From assembly GCF_024213555.1 (NCBI RefSeq), contig NZ_JANAVO010000001.1, forward strand, positions 992,001 to 1,056,000: a stretch of 64,000 bases of DNA, given 5' to 3'. Positions 14,763 through 62,074 of this stretch are shown here, piece by piece. Position 1 is the stretch's first letter; each line of letters opens with the position of its first letter. A program made the position numbers and the translations under genes. Under the pieces are notes generated by a model. It worked only from the letters and a program-made list of their open reading frames with translations, did not search any database and was not told the DNA's origin. Origin of the DNA: Allokutzneria sp. A3M-2-11 16. GTDB lineage: Bacteria > Actinomycetota > Actinomycetes > Mycobacteriales > Pseudonocardiaceae.

Positions 14763-15560
14763 GTGCGGGCACGTTCGGCGTTGTTCGATGTCTACGGTGG
14801 ACACCTCAGACAGCGGGGTGGCACCGCGACCATTGCCGCCCTGGTGCGGTTACTCGAACCACTGGGATTCGCACCACCAGCCGTGCGCACCGCGGTCTCG
14901 CGCACCGTCCGGCAGGGCTGGCTGCGGCCGGTGCGGCTGCCCGCGGGACCGGGCTACGCGATGACCGCTCGCGCGGAGAAACGCCTGGACGAGGCCAGCG
15001 CCAGGGTGTTCCGCACTCGACCGTCCACTTGGGATGGTCGGTGGCACGTGGTCGTGCTCGAAGACCTCCCGGCCCGGCCGAGGCGAGACCAGCTCACCTC
15101 CTCGCTGAAGCTGATCGGCTACGGCGAACTCGGTCCGGTCACCTGGATTTCCCCACGCCCGTCACCGGAACTGACCGATCTGCTCGCGGTCGAGGGCGCG
15201 GCGGCGCGGATCTTCCACGGCGAGCACGACGGCGACGACGCCGAGCTCGCCGGGCGGGCCTGGGACCTCAACGCGCTCGGAGCGGACTACCAGCGCTTCG
15301 TCGAGGACTGGTCCGGCCGAGTGTCCACAGTGGACACGGAGAGCCAGCCCGCCGCCTTCGCCGTGTCCCAGGAACTGTTGCACGCCTGGCGAAAGTTCCT
15401 CTTCCGCGATCCCAGCCTGCCCCCGGAACTGCTGCCGCCGGACTGGCCGGGGCACACCGCGGCGCGGTTCTTCGACCAGCAGACCGAACGGCTCGCGGTG
15501 GCCACGAACGAATTCATCGAGAGCTGTCTGGGCAACACCCGAACATCATCGAGCGCCTGA
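14763..15560 (+). CDS. PaaX family transcriptional regulator
   Basis: About 265 residues if translation begins at the GTG at 14763, where the family pattern starts (VRARSALFDVYGGHL). In-frame ATGs at 14622 and 14644 would add a poorly conserved extension. The N-terminal winged helix (about residues 20-60, LEPLGFAPPAVRTAVSRTVR) and the central domain around WDGRWHVVVLEDL match PaaX, a repressor of phenylacetate catabolism that responds to phenylacetyl-CoA. The adjacent enoyl-CoA hydratase gene starts 20 bp after its stop, so the pair is probably one operon. No other paa genes are present here. Confidence 0.85.
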   Translation: MRARSALFDVYGGHLRQRGGTATIAALVRLLEPLGFAPPAVRTAVSRTVRQGWLRPVRLPAGPGYAMTARAEKRLDEASARVFRTRPSTWDGRWHVVVLEDLPARPRRDQLTSSLKLIGYGELGPVTWISPRPSPELTDLLAVEGAAARIFHGEHDGDDAELAGRAWDLNALGADYQRFVEDWSGRVSTVDTESQPAAFAVSQELLHAWRKFLFRDPSLPPELLPPDWPGHTAARFFDQQTERLAVATNEFIESCLGNTRTSSSA

Positions 15561-15579
15561 GCGGAAAACGGAGATCAGC

Positions 15580-16392
15580 GTGGGACTGGACCGTGAGAAT
15601 AATCACGATGCCGAACTTCTGGTCGGCGACAGCGACGGCGTCCGAACGCTCACCCTGAATCGGCCGGATGCCTTCAATTCGCTCACCGTCGGGCTGAAGG
15701 AACAGTTGCTCGCGGCATTGCACGACGCGGCGGGCGATCCCGCGGTGCGGGCACTCGTGCTGACCGGAGCGGGCCGGGCGTTCTGCGCGGGCCAGGACCT
15801 CAAGGAGCACGTGCGGCTGCTCTCGGACGGCGATCCCGCGCCGCTGAGCACGGTCGAGAAGCACTACAACCCGTTGACCCAGGCGCTTTTCCGGATGCCG
15901 AAGCCGGTGATCGCCGCGGTGAACGGGACCGCGGCGGGTGCCGGTGCCTCGCTGAGCTACGCGTGCGATCTGCGCGTCGCGGCGCGCTCGGCGAAGTTCC
16001 TGCTCGCCTTCGCCAACGTCGGGCTGGCCGCGGACTCGGGCGCGTCGTGGACGCTGCCGAGGCTGATCGGCTACGGCCGGGCGATGGAACTGATGCTGCT
16101 GGCGCAACCGGTCGGCGCGGAGGAGGCGCTGCGGATCGGCATGGTCACCCGCGTCGTCGACGACGGAGAAGTGCTTGCGGAGGCGCAGAAACTGGCCGCG
16201 CGGATGGCCGCGGGACCGACCACCGCCTACGCCAGGATCAAGCAGGAGATGCTGACCGCCGCGAGCGCGGACCTCACCGAAGCGCTGGCCGAGGAGGCCG
16301 CCGCACAAGCCGCCGCCGGGCAGACCGCCGACCACCGCGAGGCCGTGGAAGCCTTCGTCGGCAAACGTGAGGCCCGCTTCACCGGCCAGTGA
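15580..16392 (+). CDS. Enoyl-CoA hydratase/isomerase family protein
   Basis: 270 residues from GTG. Crotonase-fold motifs are present: LTGAGRAFCAGQDLKE with the oxyanion-hole region, AVNGTAAGAGASLSYACD, and a FANVGLAADSGASWTLPRL helix typical of PaaG/PaaB-type hydratases, where the Asp of DSGA may be the catalytic acid. It would act on acyl-CoA intermediates in the cytoplasm. The upstream PaaX-like gene suggests a role in aromatic or phenylacetyl-CoA breakdown, but this rests on context. A tandem hairpin element begins 13 bp after its stop. Confidence 0.9.
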   Translation: MGLDRENNHDAELLVGDSDGVRTLTLNRPDAFNSLTVGLKEQLLAALHDAAGDPAVRALVLTGAGRAFCAGQDLKEHVRLLSDGDPAPLSTVEKHYNPLTQALFRMPKPVIAAVNGTAAGAGASLSYACDLRVAARSAKFLLAFANVGLAADSGASWTLPRLIGYGRAMELMLLAQPVGAEEALRIGMVTRVVDDGEVLAEAQKLAARMAAGPTTAYARIKQEMLTAASADLTEALAEEAAAQAAAGQTADHREAVEAFVGKREARFTGQ

Positions 16393-16405
16393 CCCGGGTT
16401 CCCCC

Positions 16406-16632
16406 GTCTTCAAGACCCACCAACCCCCTCCCCAGCGATCGTCAACCACCACACACCCCCGGTGCCGCTCAGGGTTCGTGGTGGTTGACGACACGCAGGG
16501 CACGGGTTCCCCCGTCTTCAAGACCACCGAACCCCCGCTCCAACGATCGCAAACGACGACCAACCTCCGGTGCCGCTCGGGGTTGGTGGTGGTTTGCGAT
16601 GCGTGGGAGGGGGGTCGGGGGTACTTGAAGAC
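16406..16632. repeat. Tandem nested-hairpin intergenic elements, family 2
   Basis: Two copies lie head to tail. Outer left arms GTCTTCAAG occur at 16406-16414 and 16514-16522, and a single outer right arm CTTGAAGAC at 16624-16632. Each copy has its own inner stem: CGTCAACCACCAC (16440-16452) with GTGGTGGTTGACG (16478-16490), and ATCGCAAACGACGACCAACC (16546-16565) with the near-complementary 16581-16600. The region fills the gap between the convergent enoyl-CoA hydratase and tag genes. Related single elements occur at 40617-40710 and 50528-50647. Confidence 0.85.
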
Positions 16633-16649
16633 GCCCCAACTCCGGTCGG

Positions 16650-17201
16650 TCAGGCGCGCCAGCAGGTGGTCACGTGGTCGTTGACCATGCCGGTGGCCTG
16701 CATCAGCGCGTAGCACGTTGTCGGGCCGACGAAGCGGAAGCCACGTCGCTTCAGCTCTTTCGCCATCGCCTTGGACTCGGCCGTCACGGCGGGCACATCG
16801 GCCAAAGTGGACGGTCGCGGTGAGGTCGGCGGGGCGAAGGACCAGAGCAGCTCGTCCAGCGGGACGTCGAGCCCGGCGACGGCCCGCGCGTTGCCGATCG
16901 TCGCGTCGATCTTGGCTCTGTTGCGCACGATTCCCGCGTCGGCGAGCAGGCGTGCCACGTCGTCGTCACCGAACTCCGCGACGACGGCGGGGTCGAACCC
17001 GGCGAACGCGGTGCGGAAGTTCTCCCGCTTGCGCAGGATCACCAACCACGACAACCCGGACTGGAATGCCTCCAGGCTGACCCGTTCGAACAGTTCGCGC
17101 TCCCCGCGCAGCGGAACGCCCCATTCGGTGTCGTGGTAGGCGATGTACTCCGGTGCTGAGGTAACCCATCCGCAGCGCGTCCGGACGTCGGTGGCACTCA
17201 C
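16650..17201 (-). CDS. tag: DNA-3-methyladenine glycosylase I
   Basis: 183 residues from a GTG that overlaps the SRPBCC stop (GTGA). The N-terminal CGWVTSAPEYIAYHDTEWG and the C-terminal NDHVTTCW carry the cysteine and histidine residues of the Tag zinc snap, with the LSWLVILRKRENFRTAF helix between. It excises 3-methyladenine from alkylated DNA. It is the last gene of a coupled run (gpgS, PadR, HAAS, DivIVA, SRPBCC, tag). In mycobacteria tagA also sits beside the DivIVA-domain gene. A second alkylation-repair locus (alkA-ogt) lies at 57-59 kb. Confidence 0.95.
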   Translation of the reverse strand: MSATDVRTRCGWVTSAPEYIAYHDTEWGVPLRGERELFERVSLEAFQSGLSWLVILRKRENFRTAFAGFDPAVVAEFGDDDVARLLADAGIVRNRAKIDATIGNARAVAGLDVPLDELLWSFAPPTSPRPSTLADVPAVTAESKAMAKELKRRGFRFVGPTTCYALMQATGMVNDHVTTCWRA

Positions 17202-17641
17202 GTGTACTCCTCGCAGAACTCGGCGAACCGGTTCAAGGAGTACCGCACACCACCGACAACCAACGGCCGCACGACCGGCCAGCCGAGGAGGCCCAGCACG
17301 CCGAGGGGCAGGTGCAGGTCCTCGCCCCACACGAACCGGGACCGCCCCGCCCCGTCCGGCCGCACCGCGAAGACGCCCGGTCCGCGTACCGGCCAGCCGG
17401 TGTGCAGAACGTGGCAGCGGTGCGGCGGATCCCACACCGTGATCTCCATGTGGTCGGTGAAGCCGACGCCCGCCCTGCCGGTGAACGCGGCGAGCGTGGA
17501 ACCGACGCTCCGGCCGTCTCCCTTGGTGACGCGCACGGTCGTGCCGAGCATCCACTCGTGCTGCCGGTCCCAGTCGGTTGCCGCCGCCCAGACGGTCTCC
17601 ACCGGCGCGGCGATGCCGACCTGGCGAACGAGCCTGGTCAC
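17198..17641 (-). CDS. SRPBCC family protein (polyketide cyclase/dehydrase-like)
   Basis: 147 residues, starting at a GTG overlapping the DivIVA gene stop and ending in a GTGA overlap with tag, so all three are translationally coupled. The START-like fold is suggested by an N-terminal strand followed by APVETVWAAATDWDRQHEW, and by the pattern of strands ending in a long C-terminal helix (RYSLNRFAEFCEEY). Such proteins bind hydrophobic ligands in a deep pocket; some are cyclases, many are of unknown role. No ligand can be named. Confidence 0.82.
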   Translation of the reverse strand: MTRLVRQVGIAAPVETVWAAATDWDRQHEWMLGTTVRVTKGDGRSVGSTLAAFTGRAGVGFTDHMEITVWDPPHRCHVLHTGWPVRGPGVFAVRPDGAGRSRFVWGEDLHLPLGVLGLLGWPVVRPLVVGGVRYSLNRFAEFCEEYT

Positions 17642-17964
17642 TGCCGGGCGTCCTCCGAGAACTCCGGGGCCGCGGGCAGCTGCCGCTCCAGCTCGTCCAC
17701 GCGCGCCCGGAGCGCGTCGATCTCCCCGGCCACCCGGTCGAGCACCCAGTCCACCTCGGACATCTTGTAACCGCGCACGGCCTGCTGGAACCGCAAAGCG
17801 CGCAGGTCGTCGCCACGCGCGCCCGCGGCGGGCAGCTGGGTCGGCGACGCGCCCGGGGGCAGCGGGGCCAGTTCCTCGCCGCGGCCGAAAACCAGTGATG
17901 CCAGCAGGAACACCACTGCGGCCACGAGGATCATGATCAGGAGGTAGATCAGAGCGGTGGTCAC
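17638..17964 (-). CDS. DivIVA-domain small membrane protein
   Basis: 108 residues. One N-terminal membrane helix (residues 5-26, IYLLIMILVAAVVFLLASLVFG) precedes the conserved LRALRFQQAVRGYKMSEVDWV segment of DivIVA-domain proteins and a short coiled coil (IDALRARVDELERQL). The GYKMSEVDWVLDR motif is shared with the mycobacterial protein encoded between gpgS and tagA. It is probably a polar or septal envelope-associated protein, but a specific role cannot be read from sequence. It is coupled to the SRPBCC gene and preceded by a 39-bp gap. Confidence 0.85.
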   Translation of the reverse strand: MTTALIYLLIMILVAAVVFLLASLVFGRGEELAPLPPGASPTQLPAAGARGDDLRALRFQQAVRGYKMSEVDWVLDRVAGEIDALRARVDELERQLPAAPEFSEDARQ

Positions 17965-18003
17965 GCCGAAGATCGTGGCACGAACGACCGCGGCAGGCAG
18001 CCC

Positions 18004-18968: not shown

Positions 18969-19909
18969 ACCGGGAAGTGTAGTGCTCCGCGCTCGTTCAG
19001 GGTAGCTCCGCTACTTATCCCGAGGACGGCACGCATTGGCGGCCGGTCGGCGAGCGGGACGATCGTGGTGTCCGGCAGCCACTCCCCCGCGTTCTGAGCG
19101 AACTGGACGAAGTCCGCGCTGTCGGTTTCCGGGACCCCGCAGCGGGACAACGCGGCGCCGAGGATCTGCCGCGCCATCACGCCGAGCTGCGCCAGCGATC
19201 GGTTGCGGTGCTTGCGCACCCCCAGGTTGACCTGCGCGAGCCCGGGGAGGCCGAAGCGGGTGTGCGCGTCCAGCAGCAGGCCGATCTCCACGCCGTAGCC
19301 CGCCGCGAACGGCACCGACTCAAGGAACGACCTGCGCGCCGCGTACTCACCGCCGAGCGGCTGGATGATCCCGGAGAGCTCGGGGCGCAGCGCGGAGAGC
19401 ACCGGCCGGGCCAGCAGTTCGGTGACGCGCCCGCCGCCGGAGCTCTCCAGGCGCAGCGGGCGGCGGTAGAACCCTTTGACCAGGTGGACGTCCGGGCGGG
19501 TGAGCAGCGGCCCGAGCAGCGCGACGACGAAGCCCGGGTCGAAGTCGACCAGGTCGGAGTCCAGGAACACCACGAGGTCACCGGAGGTCGCGGCGAGCGA
19601 GCGCCACAGCACCTCCCCCTTGCCGGGAACGGGTGGCAGGTCCGGCAGCACGTCCTCGCGGCGCACCACGCGAGCGCCCGCCGCCGCGGCGATCTCCACC
19701 GTGCGGTCGGTGGAACCGGAGTCCACCACGACCAGCTCGTCGACAAGGCCGCGCAGCGGCACCAGCGCGGTGACGATCGCGCCGACCGTGGCCTCCTCGT
19801 CCAGCGCGGGGAGCACGACGCTGATCCGCTGAGAACCCTTGCGGGCCAACAGGTCCTCAACCGTCCACTGTGGATCTTGCCAGGTGTTCTCGTCGAACCA
19901 GGGTTGCAC
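18965..19909 (-). CDS. gpgS: Glucosyl-3-phosphoglycerate synthase (GT81)
   Basis: 314 residues from GTG. The GT-A core shows VVLPALDEEATVGAIV, the ELVVVDSGSTDRT segment and the DxD-containing VFLDSDLVDFDP, followed by LVKGFYRRPL and AAGYGVEIGLLLD, all typical of GpgS. It transfers glucose from a nucleotide sugar to 3-phosphoglycerate, the first step to glucosylglycerate and, in mycobacteria, methylglucose lipopolysaccharide. It follows folP2 by 12 bp, the same order as in mycobacteria. Confidence 0.94.
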   Translation of the reverse strand: MQPWFDENTWQDPQWTVEDLLARKGSQRISVVLPALDEEATVGAIVTALVPLRGLVDELVVVDSGSTDRTVEIAAAAGARVVRREDVLPDLPPVPGKGEVLWRSLAATSGDLVVFLDSDLVDFDPGFVVALLGPLLTRPDVHLVKGFYRRPLRLESSGGGRVTELLARPVLSALRPELSGIIQPLGGEYAARRSFLESVPFAAGYGVEIGLLLDAHTRFGLPGLAQVNLGVRKHRNRSLAQLGVMARQILGAALSRCGVPETDSADFVQFAQNAGEWLPDTTIVPLADRPPMRAVLGISSGATLNERGALHFPV

Positions 19910-26259: not shown

Positions 26260-27177
26260 ATGTCCCGGCTTCGTGTTGTGAAGGTCCGTCGAAGCCGGGA
26301 TGTCGGTGCCCTCGGCCTGCCCGATGAGCCGCGTAGTGCGGCGCCGGATGCCCCAGTCGCCGAGCACGTGCACGCGGCGATCGATCGTTGGCTGCGGGTG
26401 ATCGTCAAGCGTGAGCCCGGTGTCCGCCGGGGCAAGGACGCCGAAGAGCTGCACAAGATGCGCGTGGCCGTGCGCCGCCTTCGCGCGGTGCTCCGCGCGG
26501 CTCGACCGCTGCTCAAGGGCTCAGAGCACAAGGCGCTCCGCGATGATCTGAAGACGGTCGGGCGCGTGCTCGGCCCTGTGCGCGATATGGACGTGCTGCT
26601 GGCGCGGCTCGACGAGCAGGCGTTGCCCCCGGCGGAACGTCTCGCGATCGAGGCTCTGATGGGCGACATCGAGGCGGAGCGCACGATCGCGCGGCAACGG
26701 ATCACCGCCCTGTTCGACAGCAAGCGCTACGACGAGCTGTTGCACCGGCTCGCCCGCTTCACCCCATCGTCCACTTCGGACAGTGATGCGTTGGTCTCCT
26801 TGGTGCGCAAGCAGTTCTCCAAGCTCGCCGATGCGGTCGACGAGGCGGGCGAAGATCCGGAAGACGATGTGCTGCACGCGCTGCGCATTCAGGGCAAGCG
26901 GCTGCGCTACACCGCCGATCTCGCGAAACCGTTGGTGGGCAAGCCGATGCGCAAGCTGATCAAGGCCACGAAGGCGTTCCAGGACGTGCTCGGCGAACAC
27001 CAGGACGCGTGCGTCGCCGAAGACCGCGTCCGCGAGCTGCTCGCCGCGCGCAAGCGCGTCGACGTCGACATGGCCTTCGCCGCCGGGCGCCTGGTTGAGC
27101 GGGAACAGCTCCGCAAAGCCGAAAACCGCGCACAGTGGCTCTCCGCCTGGACCGAAGTCCAGGCGCGCGCCATCTGA
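26260..27177 (+). CDS. CHAD domain-containing protein
   Basis: 305 residues from an ATG with a strong AAGGAGGT site. The CHAD domain, an all-alpha fold with conserved basic and histidine residues that binds inorganic polyphosphate, is shown by [19 protein letters not shown] and by [17 protein letters not shown], separated by a [18 protein letters not shown] segment. Many CHAD genes sit near polyphosphate or adenylate-cyclase-like CYTH genes, but here it lies between dapD and dapC with a MITE-like element in front, which may be an insertion in the DAP region. Function beyond likely polyphosphate binding is unknown. Confidence 0.92.
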
Positions 27178-29564: not shown

Positions 29565-29627
29565 CCCGTTTCGTACTCATAGCGGGAAAGAGAGCGCTCC
29601 CAAATCCCAACAAGAGTACGAAACGGG
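29565..29627. repeat. 63-bp palindromic intergenic element, family 1, copy 2
   Basis: CCCGTTTCGTACTC (29565-29578) and GAGTACGAAACGGG (29614-29627) are perfect 14-bp arms. The centre AGAGAGCGCTCCC (29589-29601) is the reverse complement of that in copy 1 at 2281-2293, and its distance to each end is swapped, so this copy is inverted relative to the first. It also lies between convergent genes (GNAT and a membrane protein). Confidence 0.85.
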
Positions 29628-37623: not shown

Positions 37624-38561
37624 CTAGCGGCTCGGACCGCCGGGCAGGCCCATATCCGACCACAGAGAGTGAGCTTCGGCGAGGTCCCGCGCGCCGTCCT
37701 CGCCACCGCGAACCTCGCCGAGAACGAGCAGCGATCGGGCGAGTTCGAGGCGCTGCGCGAAGCCCCGGTTCAGCTCAACCGCTTCCCGCGCACGGACCAG
37801 CGCCACCTCGTCCTCGCCCAGCGCAAGGTGCGCCTTCGCCATCATCACGAGCACACGGCCGAGACCACGCCGACATCCGGTCTGCTGCGCCAGTATCAGC
37901 GCCTCTGTCTCCTGCTTGCGATCGTTTGTCTCCCTGGCGACTGCTGAGACACGTCACTTCTCCGATGTACGAGCCGACCTGGCGCCACAGCACCAAAGAT
38001 CGTTCGAAGTGCACCATCGCCTCCGGCCGTCTTGCCGACGCCGGGCGGGCCGGGCAGCAGCACCCTGTCCTCTTGGGACAACCGGCTCAGCAAGGCTGTG
38101 CGCCCGACGAATCCTGGCCATGCGCACTGTCCAACAAGGACTTCGACGGCACGTCCGCCAGCAGGTCGCCGCGCCACAGGCCGAGGGCTTCGGTGTACGC
38201 GCAGCATCGCGGTTTCCCTGTGCCGCCTCGTGAAGTCCTTGCCGGGCAAGGCGTTCGAAGTCCTCGACGTCGAGCGCGCCGGACGGGAGCCGGATGAGGA
38301 AGCCGTCGGGAACAGCACCGATCAGGTCTCGGTCGCCCAGCGACTTCCGCAGGCGGGTCACGTAGGTGTGCACCGTCCGCGTCGCGTTGGCGGGCGGATT
38401 CTCCGCCCAGAGAAAGCCGATCAGTTCGCCGGTCGGCACGACCCTGTTGGCGCGCAACAACAACGCTGCCAGGAGTACGCGCTGTTTGCCGAACGGATCG
38501 GAACTTCGGCCTCGTCGACCACGACCCGGAGCGGGCCGAGCACGCCGAAGCGGGCGCTCAC
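37624..38561 (-). pseudogene. Decayed SARP/AfsR-type transcriptional regulator
   Basis: Read on the minus strand from GTG 38561, three frames together encode parts of one SARP/AfsR protein. The N-terminal DNA-binding domain (RFGVLGPLRVVVDEAEVP) shifts frame into GKQRVLLAALLLRANRVVP and TVHTYVTRLRKSLGD, then again into EALGLWRGDLLADVP. Later fragments are FVGRTALLSRLS followed by GPPGVGKT, a P-loop of the NB-ARC ATPase, and a TPR segment (ALGEDEVALVRAREAVELN). Most of the transcriptional-activation and ATPase regions are missing. Intact members are usually over 900 residues; about 310 codons remain here. Its start overlaps the lpqW stop (GTGA), so it was once coupled to that gene. Confidence 0.8.
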
Positions 38562-44538: not shown

Positions 44539-45349
44539 GCAGCAGCGCGATGTCGGGGTCGAGCCAGTCCAGCTCCGCCAGGCGGTCGGCCGGAACCCAT
44601 TCCACGGCAAGGTGTTCCAGGGCTTCGGGCAGCTCGTCGGCGTCGGCGAGGGTCGCCGCGTAGGTGCGCATCAGGTAGCCCTTGGGCAGCGGCACGTCGG
44701 GGCCGATGCGCGCGCCGACCGCGATCCGCGCGCCCAGCTCCTCGACGCACTCGCGGACGAGCGCGGCATCGTCCGTCTCCCCAGCCTCGACGCGCCCGCC
44801 CGGCAGCTCCCACCGCCCGGCGAGGTGCTCGGGGTAGGACCGCTGCTGCGCGAGTATGTGTCCTTTGTGGACGATCGCGGCGGCGACAACGACCGGTGCG
44901 GCGCGAAGCTCGGCGACGCGCGCCCGCACAGCGGCTCCCCGTCGCTGCAACAGCCGCAGCACGAACCGCCGCATCAGCAGCACGTCGGCCACCGAACCGA
45001 TCGGCCCCCACGGCGAAAGCCAGCGCACGGAGTCGGTGATCAGCGTCCCCGCGCCGGTCTCCGCCAGCGTGATGTCGTGCCTGAGCGCGCGCACGAGCTG
45101 GTCCGGCGAAGCCAGCTCCGAGGACAGGCCGGTGTCGTCAACGCGCACGATCTTGGTACGCATCGGAACGCGGGCGCCGAGCGCCAGCGGGACCTCGAAG
45201 CTCAGCACGTCGCCGACGCAGAGCAGATCGCCACGCGCTGTGGTGCTGGCGCGCGGACCGGTCGCCTGGACGACGGTGACATCGCGAACCGCGGCCGCCA
45301 CCGTGCGGATCGGCGCGTCGACGAGCTGGGTGGACCTCAGAACCGGCAC
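44504..45349 (-). CDS. SRPBCC-NUDIX fusion protein
   Basis: 281 residues. The N-terminal 145 residues look like a SRPBCC ligand-binding domain (STQLVDAPIRTVAAAVRDV, ending in FVLRLLQRRGAAVRARV). The C-terminal part (about 150-281) has a NUDIX domain with the catalytic box GRVEAGETDDAALVRECVEE. NUDIX enzymes hydrolyse nucleoside diphosphates linked to another group; MutT-like ones clean the nucleotide pool. In mycobacteria a mutT gene lies in a comparable region, but I do not know the SRPBCC fusion elsewhere. Substrate unknown. The stop lies within the terminator hairpin shared with trpS. Confidence 0.85.
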   Translation of the reverse strand: MPVLRSTQLVDAPIRTVAAAVRDVTVVQATGPRASTTARGDLLCVGDVLSFEVPLALGARVPMRTKIVRVDDTGLSSELASPDQLVRALRHDITLAETGAGTLITDSVRWLSPWGPIGSVADVLLMRRFVLRLLQRRGAAVRARVAELRAAPVVVAAAIVHKGHILAQQRSYPEHLAGRWELPGGRVEAGETDDAALVRECVEELGARIAVGARIGPDVPLPKGYLMRTYAATLADADELPEALEHLAVEWVPADRLAELDWLDPDIALLPDLRALLAEAP

Positions 45350-48661: not shown

Positions 48662-49647
48662 GCTTGAGCACCGAGCCGCTTGCGGCGACCGGTGCGGTGG
48701 GGGCGGCCCAGCAGGCCGCCCCCGCCCTCGCGGCCCGTACCAGCGGACTACGCAAGGTCTACGGACACACCGTCGCGGTCGACTGCGTCGACCTGGAGGT
48801 CCCGCAGGGCGCGGTGCTCGGCCTGCTGGGGCCCAACGGCTCCGGCAAGACCACAACGATCAGGATGCTGCTCGGCCTGACCCGGCCGAGCGCGGGCAGC
48901 GTCGAGCTGCTCGGGGTGCCCATGCCGGACGGCGCGGACCGCGCGCTGCCGCACGTGGGCGCGCTGGTGGAGGGGCCGGGGTTCCACCCGTTCCTGTCCG
49001 GGCGGGAGAACCTGCGCCGCTGCGCCGCCGCCGAACCGCTGCTGCCGACCGAGGGGATCTCCAGGGCCGTCGACGAGGCGCTGGAGCGGGTCGGGCTCGG
49101 GCACGCGGCGACGCGGAAGTACCGGGGGTACTCGCTCGGCATGAAGCAGCGGCTCGGCCTGGCCGCCGCGCTGCTGGTGCCGAGGCGGCTGGTGGTGCTC
49201 GACGAGCCCACGAACGGGCTGGATCCGGCGGGTACCAGGGAGATCCGCGCGGTGATGGCCGAGCTGCACGGGTCCGGGACCACGGTGGTCGTGTCCTCGC
49301 ACCTGCTCTCCGAGGTCGAGGCGACCTGCACGCACGTCGCCGTGCTGCACCAGGGCACCGCGGTGGCGCAGGGCTCGCTCGCCGAGCTGCTCGACGCCGG
49401 GACCCCAACCCTCACAGTGTCTACTGAGGACGTTCAGATCGCGGTGGACACTTTGCGGGACAACAGAATTCCATTTTGGTCCGATGTGGACAGTGTGCGG
49501 GTAGAGCTGGTGACGGCTACTCCGCAGCAGGTGATCGAGAAGCTCGTGCTCGCCGGGGTGGGCGTGCGTGAAGCGCGTCGTGAGCGGACCGGTCTTGAGG
49601 AGCTGTTCGCCCGGCTGACCGAGTCCGACGTGCGGGAGGGGTCATGA
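48658..49647 (+). CDS. ABC-type exporter ATP-binding protein
   Basis: 329 residues from a GTG overlapping the LolA-like stop (GTGA). Walker A is GPNGSGKTTTIRMLLG, the signature YSLGMKQRLGLAAAL, Walker B RLVVLDEPTNGLD, and the H-loop VVSSHLLSEVE. It belongs to the ABC-2 (CcmA/BceA-like) exporters and pairs with the permease encoded next. Such exporters move lipids, antibiotics or peptides; the envelope-related neighbours suggest a cell-surface role. Confidence 0.93.
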   Translation: MSLSTEPLAATGAVGAAQQAAPALAARTSGLRKVYGHTVAVDCVDLEVPQGAVLGLLGPNGSGKTTTIRMLLGLTRPSAGSVELLGVPMPDGADRALPHVGALVEGPGFHPFLSGRENLRRCAAAEPLLPTEGISRAVDEALERVGLGHAATRKYRGYSLGMKQRLGLAAALLVPRRLVVLDEPTNGLDPAGTREIRAVMAELHGSGTTVVVSSHLLSEVEATCTHVAVLHQGTAVAQGSLAELLDAGTPTLTVSTEDVQIAVDTLRDNRIPFWSDVDSVRVELVTATPQQVIEKLVLAGVGVREARRERTGLEELFARLTESDVREGS

Positions 49648-50647: not shown

Positions 50648-51403
50648 CTCCGAACCACAGTGCGGGCAGCGGACGGGCTCAGCCGAGGTGGTCTTGGTGC
50701 GGCCGAAGAATGCGGCGATGTCGGGGTCGGCGGGGTGGTGCCAGACTTCTTCGGGCGTGCCTGTCTGCACGATCTTTCCTTTGCGCATCAAAGCGATGCG
50801 GTCGGCCAAGGCGAACGCTTCGTCGTGATCGTGGGTGACCAGGAGCGCGGTCGCCCCAGCCCGGCGCAGAAGCACGGCGAGGTCCGCGGCGAGTTGCTCG
50901 CGCAGTGCGCGATCCAGCGCTGACAGAGGTTCATCGAGCAGCAACAGCTTCGGCCGCGGTGCGAGGGCGCGCGCCAACGCCACGCGCTGCTGTTCTCCCC
51001 CGGACAGCTCCGTGGTGCGCCGTGAGCCGTACCCGGGAAGGCCGACCAGGTCGAGGAGTTCCGCGACGCGCTCGGCCTGCGCCTTCTTGTCCGCGCCCCG
51101 CATGCGCAGCCCGAACGCGACGTTGCCCGCCACATCGCGATGCGGAAACAGTTGGCCGTCTTGGAAAACGAGACCGAAGCCGCGCTGGTGGACCGGCACG
51201 TCGGCCAGGTCCGCACCGTCCCACTGCACGGTGCCGGAGTGGGCGCGCTCCAGACCCGCGACGGCGCGCAGCAGCGTCGACTTGCCGCAGCCGGAGGGGC
51301 CGAGCAACGCGAGCACCTCTCCGTCCGCGATCTCCAGGTCCACATCGGACACGGCGACCGTTTGTCCATAGTGGACGTTCAAGGTGCTGAGCCGGAGGCC
51401 CAT
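50585..51403 (-). CDS. thiQ: Thiamine ABC transporter ATP-binding protein ThiQ
   Basis: 272 residues, start overlapping the thiP stop (ATGA). Walker A GPSGCGKSTLLRAVAG, signature ELSGGEQQRVALARAL, Walker B KLLLLDEPLSALD and the H-loop LLVTHDHDEAFAL are present. The gene belongs to the riboswitch-controlled thiamine operon. The C-terminal tail includes CPHCGSEVF and then a sequence encoded by the nested hairpin element, ending SLTTPNLPE; this tail is not part of the family core and has probably been replaced by insertion of the element. Confidence 0.9.
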   Translation of the reverse strand: MGLRLSTLNVHYGQTVAVSDVDLEIADGEVLALLGPSGCGKSTLLRAVAGLERAHSGTVQWDGADLADVPVHQRGFGLVFQDGQLFPHRDVAGNVAFGLRMRGADKKAQAERVAELLDLVGLPGYGSRRTTELSGGEQQRVALARALAPRPKLLLLDEPLSALDRALREQLAADLAVLLRRAGATALLVTHDHDEAFALADRIALMRKGKIVQTGTPEEVWHHPADPDIAAFFGRTKTTSAEPVRCPHCGSEVFKSPEPRLHPSLTTPNLPE

Positions 51404-52998
51404 CAGAACTCTCCAAGGGCTTCGGTGCCGACGCGGACACGCTCGATCAACGCGACGGCGGCGACTGTGACGATCATCAGCAGCACGCAGGACGCATAGG
51501 CCATCTGCACGTTCAGCTCACCCGGCCGGGAGATCAGCCGGGAGATCGCCACCGGCAGCGTCGGCGCGTCCGGCCGCACCAGGAAGCTGGTCGCCCCGAA
51601 CTCGCCGAGCGCGACCACGTAACCGAATCCCGCCGCGGCGAGCAGCGACCGCCCCACGAACGGCAGGTCGACCTCGCGCCACACCCGCAACGGCGAGGCG
51701 CCGAGCGTCGCGGCGGCCTGACGGAGGCGGTCGTCGATCGCCCGCAGCACGGGCAGCACCGTCCGGACGATCAACGGCATCACCACGAGCGCCTGCGCGA
51801 ACGGCACCAGGATCGGCGACGAGCGGAGATCACCGGGCAAGGCGTCCATGGTGACGAGGTAGCCGAAGCCAACGGTCACGGCGGACACCCCGAGCGGGAG
51901 CATCAGCGCCATGTCCATCGCCTCGGCGAGCCGTCCGCGACGCCGCCGGAGCTGAGACAGCACAACCGCCGCGAGGACCCCGAGGACCATCGCGAGGAGC
52001 GTCGCGTCGAAAGCGGTCCGCAGGGAGTTCAACGCGGCATCCAGACCCGACACGCCCAAGGTAGACCGCGCCGCATCGCCCGCGAGCGCCGCGTAACCGG
52101 CAAGACTCCAACCGTCCCTTGTGGACAGTGATTGACTGATCAACGAGAAGACGGGCAGCAGCAACAGCACTACGACAATGACTGCCGCCGCAACCACGAT
52201 CCACTCAGCGCCTTCGGGACGCCGAGCCGTCTCTGTACGGCTGCGCAGCGCCAGCGCGGTCTCGCGCTTGCGCCGCGCGATGGCTCCAACGAGAAGCGCG
52301 CCGACCACGGCGACGAGCTGCAGGAGCGAGAGAGCCGCGGCGCCGGGAAGGTCCAGCAACTGCACGGTGCGCAGGTAGATCTCGGTCTCCAGCGTCCGGT
52401 ACTCGGAACCCCCGAGCACCAGGACCACTCCGAAACTCGTTGCGCAGAACAGGAAAACGACGGCGAGGGCCGACCCTATCGCGGGCGCGAGCGCGGGCAA
52501 AGTCACCGAAGTGAAGGCGCGCCAACGGGAAGCACCCAGCGCACGCGCGGCGTCCTCGGCTCGGCGATCGAGGTTCGCCCACAGGCCGCCAACCGTCCGA
52601 GCGACCACTGCGACGTTGAAGAACGCGTTGGCCAGCACGATCGCGACCACACCGCCATCGCCGAACGTCGAGCGGAAAGCCATGCCCACCACCAATGTGG
52701 GCAGCACGAACGGGATCGTGACGATCAGCCGGACCAGCGCCCGCCCGCGCACCGCACAGCGCGCGAGCAGGTAGGCCACCGGAAGCCCGGCCAGCAGGGC
52801 GACCACTGTGGACGCTGCCGCCTGGCCGAGCGTGAAGGCCACGAGCTCCCAGGTCTGCGGGTCCGCGAGCACCGCGCCGACCCCGGACTCGCTCAGCCCC
52901 AGGCCGAGGATGGCCGCGACCGGCCAGGCGAAGAACACGACGAGGAACAGCAGCGGAACCACTGCTCCCACGCCGAGAAGAGCCTTCGTACCGCGCAC
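51403..52998 (-). CDS. thiP: Thiamine ABC transporter permease ThiP (two fused permease units)
   Basis: 531 residues from GTG 52998, 2 bp after the thiB stop; the frame is open upstream inside thiB but without permease similarity. About twelve membrane helices form two ABC permease halves, as in ThiP. ATPase-contacting loops are visible in both halves: ARALGASRWRAFTSVTLPAL and AATLGASPLRVWREVDLPF. It moves thiamine or a derivative across the membrane. The pairing with a TPP riboswitch upstream supports the substrate. Confidence 0.93.
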   Translation of the reverse strand: MRGTKALLGVGAVVPLLFLVVFFAWPVAAILGLGLSESGVGAVLADPQTWELVAFTLGQAAASTVVALLAGLPVAYLLARCAVRGRALVRLIVTIPFVLPTLVVGMAFRSTFGDGGVVAIVLANAFFNVAVVARTVGGLWANLDRRAEDAARALGASRWRAFTSVTLPALAPAIGSALAVVFLFCATSFGVVLVLGGSEYRTLETEIYLRTVQLLDLPGAAALSLLQLVAVVGALLVGAIARRKRETALALRSRTETARRPEGAEWIVVAAAVIVVVLLLLPVFSLISQSLSTRDGWSLAGYAALAGDAARSTLGVSGLDAALNSLRTAFDATLLAMVLGVLAAVVLSQLRRRRGRLAEAMDMALMLPLGVSAVTVGFGYLVTMDALPGDLRSSPILVPFAQALVVMPLIVRTVLPVLRAIDDRLRQAAATLGASPLRVWREVDLPFVGRSLLAAAGFGYVVALGEFGATSFLVRPDAPTLPVAISRLISRPGELNVQMAYASCVLLMIVTVAAVALIERVRVGTEALGEF

Positions 52999-53000
52999 CG

Positions 53001-54044: not shown

Positions 54045-54097
54045 TTCGTCCCTCCTGGTCGCCGTTGTCGTGACCACGAGGCACCGCGAGCGGCGCG

Positions 54098-54200
54098 CAA
54101 CCTCCCTACACCGGCATGATCCGGATCAGGTTCGTACGGTCGAGGGCTGGCGGCCCTCCTCTCAGCCCGGCATACCGGGCTCCCGTGGCACCCCCAGCCT
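54098..54200 (-). promoter_or_regulatory. TPP riboswitch (THI element)
   Basis: On the minus strand the leader reads GGGGGTGCCACGGG, then GGGCTGAGAGG, an ACGAACCTGATCCGGATCAT block, and GCCGGTGTAGGGAGG, the conserved core of the TPP-sensing riboswitch. The variable stem between them is CCCGGTATGCCGGG-like. It ends about 54 bp upstream of the thiB start. Binding of thiamine diphosphate would reduce expression of thiBPQ. Confidence 0.95.
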
Positions 54201-54538: not shown

Positions 54539-54550
54539 CCGTCCACATAG

Positions 54551-54585
54551 GACGCGCCAACGGCGAGACTCGCCGTTGGCGCGTC
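54551..54585. terminator. Perfect 17-bp hairpin between convergent genes
   Basis: GACGCGCCAACGGCGAG (54551-54567) is exactly complementary to CTCGCCGTTGGCGCGTC (54569-54585), with a single base between. It lies 12 bp after the pterin dehydratase stop and 12 bp before the end of the convergent gene, so it is likely a bidirectional terminator. A GTCCACWNNGGAC word directly precedes it. Confidence 0.85.
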
Positions 54586-56975: not shown

Positions 56976-57098
56976 GTCCAGGGAGTCTAGGTGCCCGCCC
57001 GAGCCCGTCCGGCCACGGGCGGCGCAACCGGGTCACCCCCGGTTATCGCCGCGGCCGTTTTCCGCCAGCCGGGCCTCGCCGGTGCTGGCAGCATCGGT

Positions 57099-58598
57099 GT
57101 GGTGCTGGTCGATTCAGAGCGTGCCTACCGGGCCGTCGCCTCTCGCGACGCCCGCTTCGACGGCTGCTTCGTGCTGGCCGTCCGCACCACGGGCATCTAC
57201 TGCCGTCCGTCGTGCCCGGCGATGACGCCGAAGCGCCGCAACGTCGAGTTCTTCCCGACCACAGCCGCGGCCCAGTCCTCCGGCTACCGGGCCTGTCGGC
57301 GCTGCCTGCCCGACGCGGTGCCCGGCTCCCCGGAGTGGAACCTGCGCGCCGACCTCGCGTCCAGGGCGATGCGGTTGATCGGCGACGGCGTCGTGGAGCG
57401 CGAGGGCGTGCCCGGCCTCGCCCGCAGGCTCGGCTACTCCGAGCGGCACCTGTCCCGGGTGCTCACCACCGAGCTCGGCGCCGGACCGCTCGCGCTCGCG
57501 CGGGCGCACCGGGCCCACGCCGCGCGCACGCTCATCGAGACGACGGCGCTGCCGTTCGCCGACATCGCCTTCGCCGCCGGGTTCTCCAGCGTGCGCCAGT
57601 TCAACGAGACCATCCAGGCCGTCTTCGCCGCCGCACCGTCCGCACTGCGCGCGGGCGCGCAGAAGCGCCGCAGGTCGGACGCACCGGCCGAGCCCAGGAC
57701 CGGAACGATCACCCTGCGCCTGCCGTTCCGCCCGCCGATGGACGCGGACGGCCTGCTGGCGTTCCTCGCCGCACGGGCGATTCCGGGCGTGGAGCACGTC
57801 GAAGCGGGCGTCTACGCCCGCGCGATCGCGCTGCCGCACGGCTCCGCGACCGTGCACCTGGAGCCCACGCCGACCCATGTGCACTGCCGCCTGCACCTGG
57901 TCGACCTGCGCGACCTGGGCGCGGCCGTGTCCAGGGTCCGCAGGCTGCTCGACCTCGACGCCGATCCGCTCGCCGTGGACGAGGTGCTCTCCGCCGACGC
58001 CTCCCTCCGCTCGCTCGTCGCCGCGACGCCCGGAATCCGGGTGCCGGGCACCATGGACGCGCACGAGATGCTGGTGCGCGCCCTGCTGGGGCAGCAGGTG
58101 TCCGTCGCCTCCGCCCGCACCGGCATCACCGCGCTGACCCGGGCGCTCGGAACGCCACTTCCCACCACCGAGGATCAGCTGACCACGCTGTTCCCCACCG
58201 CCGAGGCGATCGCCGCCCACGGCGCCGAGGTGCTCACCGGCCCGCGCAAACGCGTCGAGACGGTGATCGCTGCCTGCGCCGCCCTGGCCGACGGCTCGCT
58301 GGAGCTGCACATCGGCCGCGACGACACCGAACTGGTCGCCGAGCTCCGGGAACTGCCGGGCATCGGCCGGTGGACCGCCGACTACGTGGCCATGCGGGTC
58401 CTCGGCACACCGGACGTCCTGCTCGCCACGGACACGGCCATGCGCAAGGGCGCCGGAGTGCTCGGCCTACCGTCCGATGTGGACGGTCTCCGGACCCGTG
58501 CCAGGTCCTGGCGTCCCTGGCGGTCCTACGCCGGAATGCACCTGTGGCACGCCGCCGCGCTGGCCGCGTCCCCCTCGACAGCAAGGAGAACCGCATGA
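57099..58598 (+). CDS. alkA: Ada-AlkA fusion: DNA-3-methyladenine glycosylase II with Ada regulatory domain
   Basis: 499 residues from GTG 57099 or 57102; no strong ribosome-binding site is visible. Order of domains: an Ada N-terminal zinc domain with four cysteines (FDGCFVLAVRTTGIYCRPSC and CRRC), an AraC-type helix-turn-helix (GLARRLGYSERHLSRVL), then AlkA with the helix-hairpin-helix glycosylase motif LPGIGRWTADYVAMRVL and the catalytic Asp in LLATDTAMRKG. It removes alkylated bases and likely activates its own operon when the Ada cysteine is methylated. It overlaps ogt (ATGA). Confidence 0.94.
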   Translation: MVLVDSERAYRAVASRDARFDGCFVLAVRTTGIYCRPSCPAMTPKRRNVEFFPTTAAAQSSGYRACRRCLPDAVPGSPEWNLRADLASRAMRLIGDGVVEREGVPGLARRLGYSERHLSRVLTTELGAGPLALARAHRAHAARTLIETTALPFADIAFAAGFSSVRQFNETIQAVFAAAPSALRAGAQKRRRSDAPAEPRTGTITLRLPFRPPMDADGLLAFLAARAIPGVEHVEAGVYARAIALPHGSATVHLEPTPTHVHCRLHLVDLRDLGAAVSRVRRLLDLDADPLAVDEVLSADASLRSLVAATPGIRVPGTMDAHEMLVRALLGQQVSVASARTGITALTRALGTPLPTTEDQLTTLFPTAEAIAAHGAEVLTGPRKRVETVIAACAALADGSLELHIGRDDTELVAELRELPGIGRWTADYVAMRVLGTPDVLLATDTAMRKGAGVLGLPSDVDGLRTRARSWRPWRSYAGMHLWHAAALAASPSTARRTA

Positions 58599-59116
58599 GC
58601 ACGGCCACCAGGTCCACCACGGCCAGTACCGCCACCGTGGAGACGCCGATCGGGCCGTTCACCGCGATCACCGCCGAGGACGGCGTCGTGCTGGCCTCGG
58701 GCTGGACCGGTGCCGTCGACGACCTGCTCGTGGTGATCTCACCCGCGCTGCGCCCGACCGAGGTCACGCCCCGCGCCGAACTCGGGGCCGTCACCAGGGC
58801 CGTGCGCGACTACCACGCCGGTCAGTTGGACGCGGCGGCCGAAGTGCCGGTGCGGCAACGCGGCGGCGAGTTCATGGAGCACGCGTGGACCATGCTGCGC
58901 ACCGTGCCCGCGGGGAAACCGGTGACCTACGCCGACTACGCCACCCTGTCCGGGCGCCCCCAGGCGATCCGCGCCGCCGCGTCCGCGTGCGCTCGCAACG
59001 CCGCCGCGCTGTTCGTCCCGTGCCACCGGGTCCTGCGCACCGGTGGTGGGATCGGGGGCTTCCGGTGGGGAGTCGAGGCCAAGCGCTGGCTGCTGGACCA
59101 CGAGGACCGGGTGTGA
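58595..59116 (+). CDS. ogt: Methylated-DNA-[protein]-cysteine S-methyltransferase
   Basis: 173 residues, start overlapping the alkA stop (ATGA), with an AAGGAG site. The active site VPCHRVLRTGG contains the acceptor cysteine, and the preceding GKPVTYADYATLSGRPQAIR helix-turn-helix binds DNA. It moves the methyl group from O6-methylguanine onto itself. Operon position after the Ada-AlkA gene suggests joint induction by alkylation. The first 10 or so residues, rich in Ser and Thr, are non-conserved. Confidence 0.96.
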   Translation: MSTATRSTTASTATVETPIGPFTAITAEDGVVLASGWTGAVDDLLVVISPALRPTEVTPRAELGAVTRAVRDYHAGQLDAAAEVPVRQRGGEFMEHAWTMLRTVPAGKPVTYADYATLSGRPQAIRAAASACARNAAALFVPCHRVLRTGGGIGGFRWGVEAKRWLLDHEDRV

Positions 59117-59122
59117 CGTCGT

Positions 59123-62074
59123 TCAGCCGGTGACCACCTCCAGACTGGAGCCGGTGGTGTCCCGCGCCTTGCGCACCCGGAGCCGGGTGGGGATGCGCTG
59201 GCGCAGCTCCTCCACGTGCGAGACCAGCCCCACGACGCGGCCACCAGCCCGCAGCTCGTCGAGGGTGTCCATCACGAGGTCCAGGGTGTCCGCGTCGAGG
59301 GTGCCGAAGCCCTCGTCCACGAACAGCGTGTCCAGCAGCGCGCCGCCGGTCTCGGCCGCGACCACGTCGGCCAGGCCCAGCGCCAGGGCGAGCGAGGCGA
59401 GGAAGGACTCCCCGCCGGAGAGCGTTTTCGCGGGTCTGGTCCGCCCGGAGTAGCCGTCGAGCACGTCGAGCCCGAGCCCGCCGCGCGTCCCCCTGGCACC
59501 GGCGGCGTCGGAGTGGACGAAGGCGTAGCGCCCCTGGCTCATCCGTTGGAGGCGCGCGGTGGCCGCGACCGCGACCTCCTCCAGCCGGGCGGCGAGGACG
59601 TAGGACCGCAGCGACATCTTCCTGGTGTTCTGCCCACGTCCGTTGACGACGTCGGTGAGGGCGTTGAGCTCCGCGAACTCGGCCTCCAGCGGAGCCAGCA
59701 CCGTCCGGGCGGCGCGGAGTTCGGCGCCGAGCCTGACCACGTCGTCCCGTCGTCGCTGCGCCGCGTTCAGCTCGCTGAGCGCGAGCGCGGCGGCCCGACC
59801 GGCCTCCTGCGTCGCCACCTCGGCTTCGGCCACGTCAACCTGGGCACCGGGATCGACCTCGGCGAGTTCGGGCTCAGCCAGCACCGATCGCGCAGCCGCT
59901 TCCCGGCGGTCCAGCTCGCGGATGCGGTGCTCCAACTGCTCGCAGTCGGGGTCCTTCAACACCGCGTCCAGCGCGGCGTCGAGGCGGTCAAAACCCGCTT
60001 CGGCGACGGCGGAGAGCACCGCGGCGCGCTGGCGGTCCACGCGTTCCGCGGAGTCCACGAGCGCCATGCGGGCGTCGACGAGTGCGCTCAAGGACTTCGC
60101 CGTGTCGAGAAGACCGACCCGCCGCGCCGATACGTCCGGGTAGTCACCGCGCGCCTCGTCCAGCCGTGCCGCGCGACGTTCGATCGTTTCCGCGAGCGCG
60201 GCCTGTTCGGTGCTGCGAACCGCGACCGAGCGATCGGCCTCGGCGTGTTCCCGGCGAGCCTGGTCGAGCTTGCTCTCCAGCTGTTCCAGTTCCGCCACGC
60301 GCGTTCGCACCGCGGCCGCCGCGGCGTTGGCCGCCCGGTGCTGCGCCTCGACCTCGGCCAGCAGCTTCTTCAGTTCGTCGGCACCCCGGCCGTCGAGCCG
60401 CTCGCGGAGCGCCGCGACGCCTCGTTCGGCGGCCTGGACCGCCTCACTGGCCGCATCACGGCGGCGGAGTGCTTGCTGCTCAACGCTTTCCGCCCGGCGT
60501 TCGTCGGCTTCGGTGACCCGCTCAGCCGTGCCGCTCGCGGGTGCCGGGTGTTCCGCTCCACCGCACACCGGGCACGGCTGTCCATCGGCGAGACCTTCCG
60601 CCAACTCGGCCGCGATGCCCTGCAAGCGGCGTTGCCGCAGGTCGAGCAGGAGTTCGCGGGCGTTCTGGTGCTCATCGACCGCCCCTCGGAACGCCGTGGA
60701 CGCCCGCTCGTGGACGCTCTCCGCCTCTGGCAGCGCCTCCGCGTCGCGCACCAGTGAACGCAGTTGGTCGCGCTGCCCGGCGAGGTCGGGCAACCGGAGC
60801 GCCGCGGTCCTCGCCTGGTCGACGGCCGCCCGGCAGGCGGTGATCCGCTCGGGCAGACCGCTCACGATCTCGTCGAGCTCCTTGGCGCGCCTGCGGAAGG
60901 TCTCCAGCTCCCGGTCCAACCGCGCCACGCGGTCCTGATCGCGTTGCTGCTGCTCGGCCTCCACGGCGAGCTCGGCGAACTGACCGGCCAACTCCTGGTT
61001 CGCCGCCGCCCTGACCCGCAACTCCTCCACCGAGCTGCCTTCGTCGCCGACCCGGGCCGCCGCCCGCTGCACCGCGTCCTGCGCCCGCCGCAGCTCGGCT
61101 TCGGCCCTGGTGAGCACCGCGTGCGCCTCGCGGACCGGAACCGCCCTGCGCGCCGCGGTCAACGCCACGGCCCACGCCTGCCGCTCGAACCGCCTTTCGT
61201 CCACAGTGGACAGTTCGGCGGTGGCGACGCGGACCCGGCGGACCCGATCGGCGAGTTCACGGCGCCGGACGAGCTCCGCGTCCGCACGCTGGTGCGCGTG
61301 CTTCGCTGCCCGTTCCCGCTCGGTGGCCTGCTCGACGGCGGCCACGCAGGACGCGGTGAGCCCGTCGAGCCAGCCGTCCTCCTCCTCGGCGAACTCGGTC
61401 CCGGCAGCCTGCGCGATGCGCTCGGCCAGCAACCGCGCGCCGTGCTGCCGCTCTTCGAGCTTGCGCCCGGCGTCCCTGCGGTGCTCCATGAACCACAGCT
61501 CGACCTCGCGGAACCGTTCCGTGTCGAACAACCGCTCAAGCAGCTTCTCCCGCTCCGAGGTCTCGGCGCGCAGGAACCGGGCGAAATCCCCCTGCGGCAA
61601 CAGAACGACCTGGAAGAACTGCTCGGCGCTCATCCCGAGCAACCGCTCGACGGTCCTGGCCACCTCGTCGATCCGGGTGACGCCCTCGCTCGCGTGACCG
61701 GGCGGCACATCGCTGAGCCAGGTCAGCGACGCCTTGGCGTTCTGCGTCGTCTCGCCGCCACCGCGCCGCTTGGGCCGGAGGTACTCCGGGCTCCTGGTGA
61801 TCAGGAGCCGGTGCCCCTGGAGGCTGAAGTCGAGCACGACCTCCGTCGGGGTGTCCGCGTCGGCGTAGTCGCACCGCAGCCGCTTCGCCTCGTTCCGCGC
61901 GCCGGGCACCCGGCCGAACAGGGCGAACGCCACCGCGTCGAGGACAGTGGTCTTGCCCGCCCCGGTTTCCCCGTGCAGCAGGAACAGGCCGTCCTCGCCG
62001 AGCGCGTCGAAGTCGACCTCCTCGCGCCCCGGATAAGGGCCGAAAGCGGCGAGTTCGAGCCGGTGCAACCTCAT
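59123..62074 (-). CDS. sbcC: SbcC-type exonuclease subunit (SMC-like ATPase)
   Basis: 983 residues, start overlapping the sbcD stop (ATGA). Walker A LLHGETGAGKTTVLDAV at about residue 34 is at the N-terminus, and the signature LSGGESFLASLALALGLAD, with Walker B TLFVDEGFGTLD, is at the C-terminus. Between them is a long coiled coil interrupted by the zinc hook CPVC near residue 500, at the hinge. With SbcD it forms the Mre11-Rad50-like complex that opens hairpins and processes DNA ends. It is convergent with ogt. Confidence 0.96.
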   Translation of the reverse strand: MRLHRLELAAFGPYPGREEVDFDALGEDGLFLLHGETGAGKTTVLDAVAFALFGRVPGARNEAKRLRCDYADADTPTEVVLDFSLQGHRLLITRSPEYLRPKRRGGGETTQNAKASLTWLSDVPPGHASEGVTRIDEVARTVERLLGMSAEQFFQVVLLPQGDFARFLRAETSEREKLLERLFDTERFREVELWFMEHRRDAGRKLEERQHGARLLAERIAQAAGTEFAEEEDGWLDGLTASCVAAVEQATERERAAKHAHQRADAELVRRRELADRVRRVRVATAELSTVDERRFERQAWAVALTAARRAVPVREAHAVLTRAEAELRRAQDAVQRAAARVGDEGSSVEELRVRAAANQELAGQFAELAVEAEQQQRDQDRVARLDRELETFRRRAKELDEIVSGLPERITACRAAVDQARTAALRLPDLAGQRDQLRSLVRDAEALPEAESVHERASTAFRGAVDEHQNARELLLDLRQRRLQGIAAELAEGLADGQPCPVCGGAEHPAPASGTAERVTEADERRAESVEQQALRRRDAASEAVQAAERGVAALRERLDGRGADELKKLLAEVEAQHRAANAAAAAVRTRVAELEQLESKLDQARREHAEADRSVAVRSTEQAALAETIERRAARLDEARGDYPDVSARRVGLLDTAKSLSALVDARMALVDSAERVDRQRAAVLSAVAEAGFDRLDAALDAVLKDPDCEQLEHRIRELDRREAAARSVLAEPELAEVDPGAQVDVAEAEVATQEAGRAAALALSELNAAQRRRDDVVRLGAELRAARTVLAPLEAEFAELNALTDVVNGRGQNTRKMSLRSYVLAARLEEVAVAATARLQRMSQGRYAFVHSDAAGARGTRGGLGLDVLDGYSGRTRPAKTLSGGESFLASLALALGLADVVAAETGGALLDTLFVDEGFGTLDADTLDLVMDTLDELRAGGRVVGLVSHVEELRQRIPTRLRVRKARDTTGSSLEVVTG

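Follow-up and report, generated by a model that had tools for sequence, protein, structure and literature searches.

Introduction

Dispersed palindromic words have been described in several bacterial systems. HIP1, the cyanobacterial palindrome GCGATCGC, is frequent in most genomes of its lineage and near-absent in some (PMC4390886); it is 8 bp long and tied to orphan methyltransferases. The word analyzed here is likewise frequent through one lineage, but it is 13 bp long, has an obligate A/T center and is tied to a PadR-type operator. It was noticed in a 64,000-nucleotide stretch of the genome of Allokutzneria sp. A3M-2-11 16 (Pseudonocardiaceae; contig NZ_JANAVO010000001.1, positions 992,001 to 1,056,000 of the forward strand; below, the window), where a sequence-only reading had given it the asymmetric form GTCCACWNNGGAC. 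The matS/MatP, SBS/SlmA, and NBS/Noc systems resemble it in having dispersed palindromes of about 13 bp and a small dedicated DNA-binding protein. Those systems have tens of sites, which either keep to macrodomains or avoid them, whereas the present word has over a thousand sites on the whole chromosome. To our knowledge, it is uncommon for a bacterial chromosome protein to recognize a long, exact word at a thousand places, and a literature search with four forms of the word found no report of it in bacterial genomes among the titles of the matches listed.

Two described proteins are relevant to the reader of such a word. NapM, a mycobacterial member of the PadR family (PF03551), is described as nucleoid-associated in a paper that, in its excerpted part, also questions this class (PMC13340245); therefore the role proposed below has a precedent in the PadR family, not in the site. 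The Allokutzneria PadR protein shares this family membership with NapM and differs in being linked to prfB, in having no Vir_act_alpha_C match (Pfam), and in its precise genome-wide word. For the PDB entry 8jxk, possibly NapM, the E value was 0.41. The IclR-family regulator NdgR of Streptomyces coelicolor has a 15-bp operator motif whose arms are separated by 3 bp and which is present at 18 of 19 chromatin immunoprecipitation sequencing loci according to an excerpt of its description (PMC4340878). The half-site GTCCAC is common to both operators, whereas the spacing GTCCAC-N3-GTGGAC has no match here. Below we describe the word as a palindrome kept by selection on DNA, and argue that it is rather probably the site of a prfB-linked PadR protein whose operator has spread over the genome, with the protein probably acting as a sequence-specific nucleoid-associated protein.

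Results

A Palindrome with a Strict Center and Spacing

All ten exact GTCCACWNNGGAC matches reported for the window are present, one of them starting at 51338 rather than 51337. They correspond to 12 strand matches, because two of the sites, 15323 and 61199, are perfectly palindromic and therefore count on both strands; 100 dinucleotide shuffles gave a mean of 0.17 and a maximum of 3. The claimed over-representation is equally evident in the whole assembly from which the window is taken (G000; 8.81 Mb in 43 contigs, the window being C11:992001-1056000), where 854 + 882 = 1,736 strand hits compare with 3 + 2 when the word is read backwards. With each of the 405 perfect palindromes counted once, there are 1,331 distinct sites, approximately one per 6.6 kb. 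In the two further Allokutzneria genomes, G001 and G002, the strand hits number 699 + 720 in one and 790 + 854 in the other.

The anatomy of the word was measured in 1.264 Mb of G000. The underlying word is the palindrome GTCCACWGTGGAC, that is, GTCCAC-W-GTGGAC with W being A or T. The asymmetric form proposed at first is its variant with one relaxed arm: relaxation is tolerated in one arm, chiefly at the innermost or the outermost base (31 of 82 one-base deviations fall on the innermost arm position and 26 on arm position 1), hence the asymmetric consensus. The spacing is strict, with GTCC and GGAC occurring 5 bp apart in 271 pairs against 12 to 82 pairs at 0-4 and 6-8 bp. All 65 sites with perfect arms have 1 bp between them, and full arms 0, 2, 3, or 4 bp apart were not found. 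The center of these 65 sites is A or T in 64 cases and S (G or C) in one; A and T interchange at this position between G000 and G001.

Selection at the DNA Level

Synonymous codons were shuffled within 1,185 predicted genes, keeping both the peptides and the codon usage. The shuffles predict 1.7 palindrome strand hits, while 114 are observed; the S-centered form is depleted (2 observed versus 11.9 from the shuffles). Within the frame G-TCC-NNn-GTG-GAC, 100 of 110 cases have A or T as the wobble base, but the share is only 4 of 34 when GCC or ACC replaces TCC, 0 of 10 with GTC or TCG inside, and 18 of 30 when only an outer base differs (C-TCC, or GAG).

G000 and G001 are 93% identical and represent two species. 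Of 65 sites, 50 are common to both, whereas letter-shuffled words are kept in 157 of 360 cases (Fisher p = 7e-7); in a smaller stretch, counted one way, 32 of 38 sites are kept versus 97 of 156 controls. The identity is 0.962 in the site core and 0.875 in its flanks, the corresponding values for control words being 0.942 and 0.930. Codon shuffling and the retention of sites in two species agree, and selection acts at the level of DNA rather than protein, as the sequence-only reading had supposed. A peptide motif with ordinary codon use is ruled out by the codon shuffling.

Distribution of the Word

The excess seen in the other Allokutzneria genomes extends to much of the Pseudonocardiaceae. 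The perfect palindrome totals 10,236 in 150 genomes of this family against 18 for the reversed control; at least one copy is present in 131 of them, at least 20 in 74, and at least 100 in 37. The counts are 426 in Allokutzneria sp. NRRL B-24872 and likewise in G002, 473 in Crossiella, 84 to 129 in five Lentzea genomes, and 6 to 154 in eight Amycolatopsis genomes, and the number of sites grows with genome size (Spearman 0.77 over the 150 genomes). A sample of 396 genomes from the phylum contains the palindrome in 22, two of which belong to the family; the other 20 hold one or two copies each, and none of the 394 sampled genomes outside the family exceeds two. In four named genomes from other families the palindrome is absent. 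Its 11-bp core has 1 to 4 copies in each of seven out-of-family genomes. As a frequent word, it is limited to the Pseudonocardiaceae within this sample.

The prfB-Linked padR Gene and Its Putative Operator

The candidate reader gene, padR, lies beside prfB at G000:C11:895874-896368 on the minus strand, some 96 kb to the left of the window. Outside the family, 25 palindromes occur in 20 genomes; the analysis covered 22 of these palindromes, which lie in 20 regions of 17 genomes. In four of these regions, belonging to four families, the palindrome adjoins a PadR gene of one clade. The four proteins match PF03551 (E 1.5e-11 to 7.4e-9) with PF10400, one of the regions has two palindromes 33 bp apart, and the other neighbors differ between the regions (RPE65-like, DUF1707). 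In Streptomyces (L192, 5036-7124) the PadR gene of the clade is divergent from a gene for an RPE65-like carotenoid oxygenase with the palindrome between them, plausibly an ordinary regulon of the same operator. In the other 16 regions a model built from the four clade sequences finds no PadR of this clade at E 1e-6; in one of them, L202, the palindrome stands among words resembling the DnaA box.

The four-sequence model does find a homolog in G001, with two copies of the word approximately 22 bp apart before the gene and prfB, identified by TIGR00020, directly downstream. The PadR alignment is matched at E 1e-12 by 149 of the 150 family genomes. We examined 50 family loci, comprising the 30 best-scoring ones and 20 selected to widen the range of genera. 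One PadR type ('FF[S/G/T]VTRSQ') accounts for 48 of them, and the remaining two (L206 and L222) are paralogs. In all 48 loci of the main type prfB adjoins padR, and a site with at most two mismatches precedes padR in 46, or in 47 with the start of L252 corrected by reading, the background being 84 out of 4000 stretches of 116 nt taken at random from G000. The g5 locus L233 has no site before padR. Where two sites are present (up to three mismatches), the spacing is 22 bp in 34 of 41 loci. The same word thus stands before padR in many genera.

A search that did not use the word and covered 197 genomes of the class gave eight out-of-family PadR loci, with a perfect palindrome before the gene in three and a two-mismatch site in one. 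Two of the four loci with three-mismatch sites have TTCCACTATGGA in common, and at L277 and L279, three-mismatch loci from another family of the order, padR also adjoins prfB. The Allokutzneria PadR matches PF03551 at E 3.5e-7, above the curated cut-off; Vir_act_alpha_C was not found in it (Pfam, E 0.01) and is present in the four out-of-family relatives. The isoelectric point (pI) of the protein is 9.6-9.8 in three high-count genomes and 4.9-6.6 in the four out-of-family relatives, and such basicity would suit a nucleoid protein. Comparison with plasmids gave one weak match (30% identity) and comparison with phages none.

Placement of Sites in the Genome

In the stretches of G000 and G001 that were analyzed, 184 of 212 sites are coding and 28 intergenic, which indicates no intergenic preference (p = 0.17 against an assumed coding share of 0.83; predicted genes cover 0.79 to 0.87), and gene starts are not preferred either. 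Coding palindromes keep to one codon phase in 54 of 67 cases, with 13 in the other two frames together; the favored phase would be the cheapest one in a GC-rich code. Gaps between sites fit an exponential distribution in two stretches (Kolmogorov-Smirnov [KS] p 0.19 and 0.32), and one stretch has mild clumping (variance/mean 1.16 and 1.60 per 20 kb). Five gaps of 200 bp or less occur between the 148 sites that deviate from the word by one base or none, and none of these gaps is 22 bp.

Restriction to a segregation or terminus domain is not seen: the 98 GTCCACATCGGAC sites along G001 have no significant trend from the origin (KS p = 0.11), with the origin-nearest eighth being low at 6 of 98. 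The density in G001 is 85 per Mb in the 200 kb at the origin, 125 at the terminus, and 147 elsewhere. In G000 the origin is presumed to be at the parS cluster (C11 at 1.911 Mb), and the surrounding 60 kb hold a single site. This dip near the origin, the only sign of an origin or terminus domain, may reflect conserved genes.

The number of strand hits falls from 344 per Mb in the least conserved quartile of genes to 70 in the most conserved one, with no such fall for letter-shuffled words. The codon-shuffled expectation over the same quartiles is 1.61, 0.67, 0.17, and 0.18, and the observed/expected ratios are 19, 42, 82, and 32. The expectation falls with conservation too, and therefore the relative excess does not favor poorly conserved genes. 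The parts of G000 without an alignment to G001 contribute 2 sites in 26 kb, and the aligned parts 60 in 436 kb.

Sites in the Window

The exact sites in the window are the following.

15323..15335, either strand: perfect palindrome GTCCACAGTGGAC in the gene of a PaaX-like regulator, read in the frame TCC ACA GTG GAC; G001 has GTCCACTGTGGAC.
26769..26781, plus strand: site GTCCACTTCGGAC in a CHAD-domain gene; unchanged in G001.
44860..44872, minus strand: site GTCCACAAAGGAC in a NUDIX gene, frame 0; unchanged in G001.
49479..49491, minus strand: site GTCCACATCGGAC in an ATP-binding cassette (ABC)-transporter ATPase gene; lost in G001.
51338..51350, plus strand: site GTCCACATCGGAC in an ABC-transporter ATPase gene; lost in G001.
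51364..51376, minus strand: site GTCCACTATGGAC in the same ATPase gene as the 51338 site, frame 0; kept in G001 with one NN change.
52114..52126, minus strand: site GTCCACAAGGGAC in a transporter permease gene; unchanged in G001.
54541..54553, plus strand: site GTCCACATAGGAC between the predicted pterin-4a-carbinolamine dehydratase and PhoX-like genes; outside the part aligned to G001.
58472..58484, minus strand: site GTCCACATCGGAC in an Ada/AlkA-like DNA-repair gene; unchanged in G001.
61199..61211, either strand: perfect palindrome GTCCACAGTGGAC in an sbcC-like gene (85% identity to the Allokutzneria sp. NRRL B-24872 counterpart); G at the center in G001.

The near-matches listed previously are all present, two of them displaced by one position (the true starts are 15023 and 52801), and those at 16800, 38067, and 49419 had been left out. 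The sites with one mismatch are given below.

15023..15035, plus strand: site GTCCACTTGGGAT.
16800..16812, minus strand: site GTCCACTTTGGCC.
17749..17761, plus strand: site GTCCACCTCGGAC, center C.
19863..19875, either strand: palindrome GTCCACTGTGGAT between predicted genes.
38067..38079, plus strand: site GTCCTCTTGGGAC between predicted genes.
49419..49431, plus strand: site GTCTACTGAGGAC; the G001 counterpart is the full site GTCCACAGAGGAC.
52801..52813, either strand: palindrome GACCACTGTGGAC.

Other features of the window include a thiamine pyrophosphate riboswitch at 54086-54196 on the minus strand (RF00059, E 3.4e-9) and two interspersed repeats. The first, often about 110 bp long with the inverted ends GTCTTCAAGTAC...GTACTTGAAGAC, occurs at 16621, 40699, and 50528 (first base of its word), has 90 word hits in 1.32 Mb of G000, and resembles a small palindromic mobile element or an element of the repetitive extragenic palindromic type. 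The second is palindromic, about 60 bp long (CCCGTTTCGTAC...GTACGAAACGGG), lies at 2255-2317 and 29565-29627, and has 49 word hits in 1.32 Mb.

Discussion

The excess of the word, its palindromic structure, the strict center and spacing, and selection on DNA are observed directly, and the earlier suggestion that it is a site for a DNA-binding protein gains support from the PadR link. In the scheme that we propose, a PadR winged-helix protein would at first have been an autoregulator, binding GTCCACWGTGGAC in one or two copies before its own gene. Single sites would then have been gained and kept by selection chromosome-wide, both in genes and between them, in the Pseudonocardiaceae genera with large genomes. 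PadR would bind the word as a dimer, with two dimers two helical turns apart at padR and single dimers at the dispersed sites. Its likeliest role is to occupy these sites and perhaps to bridge or bend them, that is, an architectural one. Genus g42 is in agreement with this scheme: its PadR matches are weak only (best E 4e-24 to 1e-18), the perfect palindrome is absent from all five genomes, and the 11-bp core has one copy in the five. Judging from this one genus, the padR gene may be necessary for dispersed sites.

Several observations weigh against the proposed scheme. Nine of 46 genera average at most two perfect palindromes (g3, g5, g6, g24, g25, g35, g38, g39, and g42), and all of them except g42 match PadR strongly; the padR operator is also present in one genome each of g3, g24, g25, g38, and g39, while one of the two g5 padR loci is without it. 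PadR plus operator is thus not sufficient for dispersed sites. Since both padR and its operator are present in low-count genera, they seem to predate the spread over the genome. In some of these genera the 11-bp core exceeds the reversed controls (0 to 3), namely in g25 (27, 35), g38 (11, 17), and g39 (11, 9); the excess is less clear in g3 (7, 10) and g5 (4, 7), and there is none in g24 (1, 1). To the same side belong the four of eight class-search loci that hold three-mismatch sites only, two of the three perfect ones being already known. The left arm of the padR operators is degenerate at the first two bases, and the genomic sites are mostly single with near-random spacing, unlike the 22-bp pair at padR. 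PadR of low-count family members is basic too, with no correlation between pI and the number of sites. Finally, non-palindromic coding sites are antisense to the gene in a ratio of 80:37, and one variant is co-directional with replication in just 38 of 98 cases (p = 0.03); codon constraint differs between the site orientations.

PadR might bind the sites as a dispersed gene regulator or silencer, blocking transcription in less conserved genes, rather than organize the chromosome. This is unlikely, though it deserves the most attention among the alternatives: PadR proteins (PF03551) are transcription regulators, the density of hits falls with gene conservation while that of shuffled words stays flat, and the number of sites rises with genome size. 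On the other hand, the excess over expectation is no larger in poorly conserved genes, neither intergenic regions nor gene starts are preferred, and DNA unaligned between the two species is not rich in sites. It is less probable still that the word is read by a different protein, with padR as just one target among others. The PadR link is solely positional, and the NdgR consensus of Streptomyces, an IclR-type one, uses the same half-site in the excerpt of its description (PMC4340878). However, PadR of the same clade stands beside the word in other families while the other neighbors vary, the genus without a close ortholog (g42) is also without the word, and NdgR itself is rejected as the reader by its spacing, since the 3-bp spacer gives no full-arm hits in 1.264 Mb.

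An origin of the HIP1 type, with DNA methylation and mismatch repair generating and preserving the word, would give the same gross pattern of a palindrome frequent through the genomes of one lineage, to judge from the excerpted HIP1 account (PMC4390886). We regard this as very improbable, as deviations fall on the innermost arm position as well as on position 1, not at the ends only, and the word precedes PadR genes in families without a genome-wide excess. Moreover, 13 bp with a mandatory A/T center is very long for a methyltransferase target. That the word merely follows from conserved peptides or from codon usage has a negligible chance: the dominance of one codon phase among coding palindromes would fit it, but the codon shuffles, the palindromes in other frames, and the intergenic sites do not. 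The DnaA box is TTGTCCACA, and the likeness noted earlier does not hold, since GTCCACA lacks a conserved TT in front of it (C 0.38 and T 0.30 at position -1, C 0.38 and T 0.18 at position -2) and the vicinity of the parS cluster is poor in sites. An RNA hairpin or coding-strand signal is not favored either, because the commonest sites are palindromic and the S-centered form, equally foldable, is depleted.

The bolder version of the PadR proposal, that in one bacterial family a PadR regulator has turned into a true sequence-specific nucleoid organizer, selection has multiplied its autoregulatory operator to more than 1,000 single sites per genome, most of them within genes, and codon choice is set in part by chromatin, is tentative, and we would give it slightly less than an even chance. 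If the PadR link holds, the family would offer a natural series that runs from genera with hardly more than the operator to those having hundreds of sites, and along which one could trace how a local repressor gave rise to such a system. It would also name a definite protein for deletion and a definite site for mutation. Moreover, it would be a simple explanation of the odd A/T-ending codons in GC-rich genes of this family, to which antibiotic producers such as Amycolatopsis belong.

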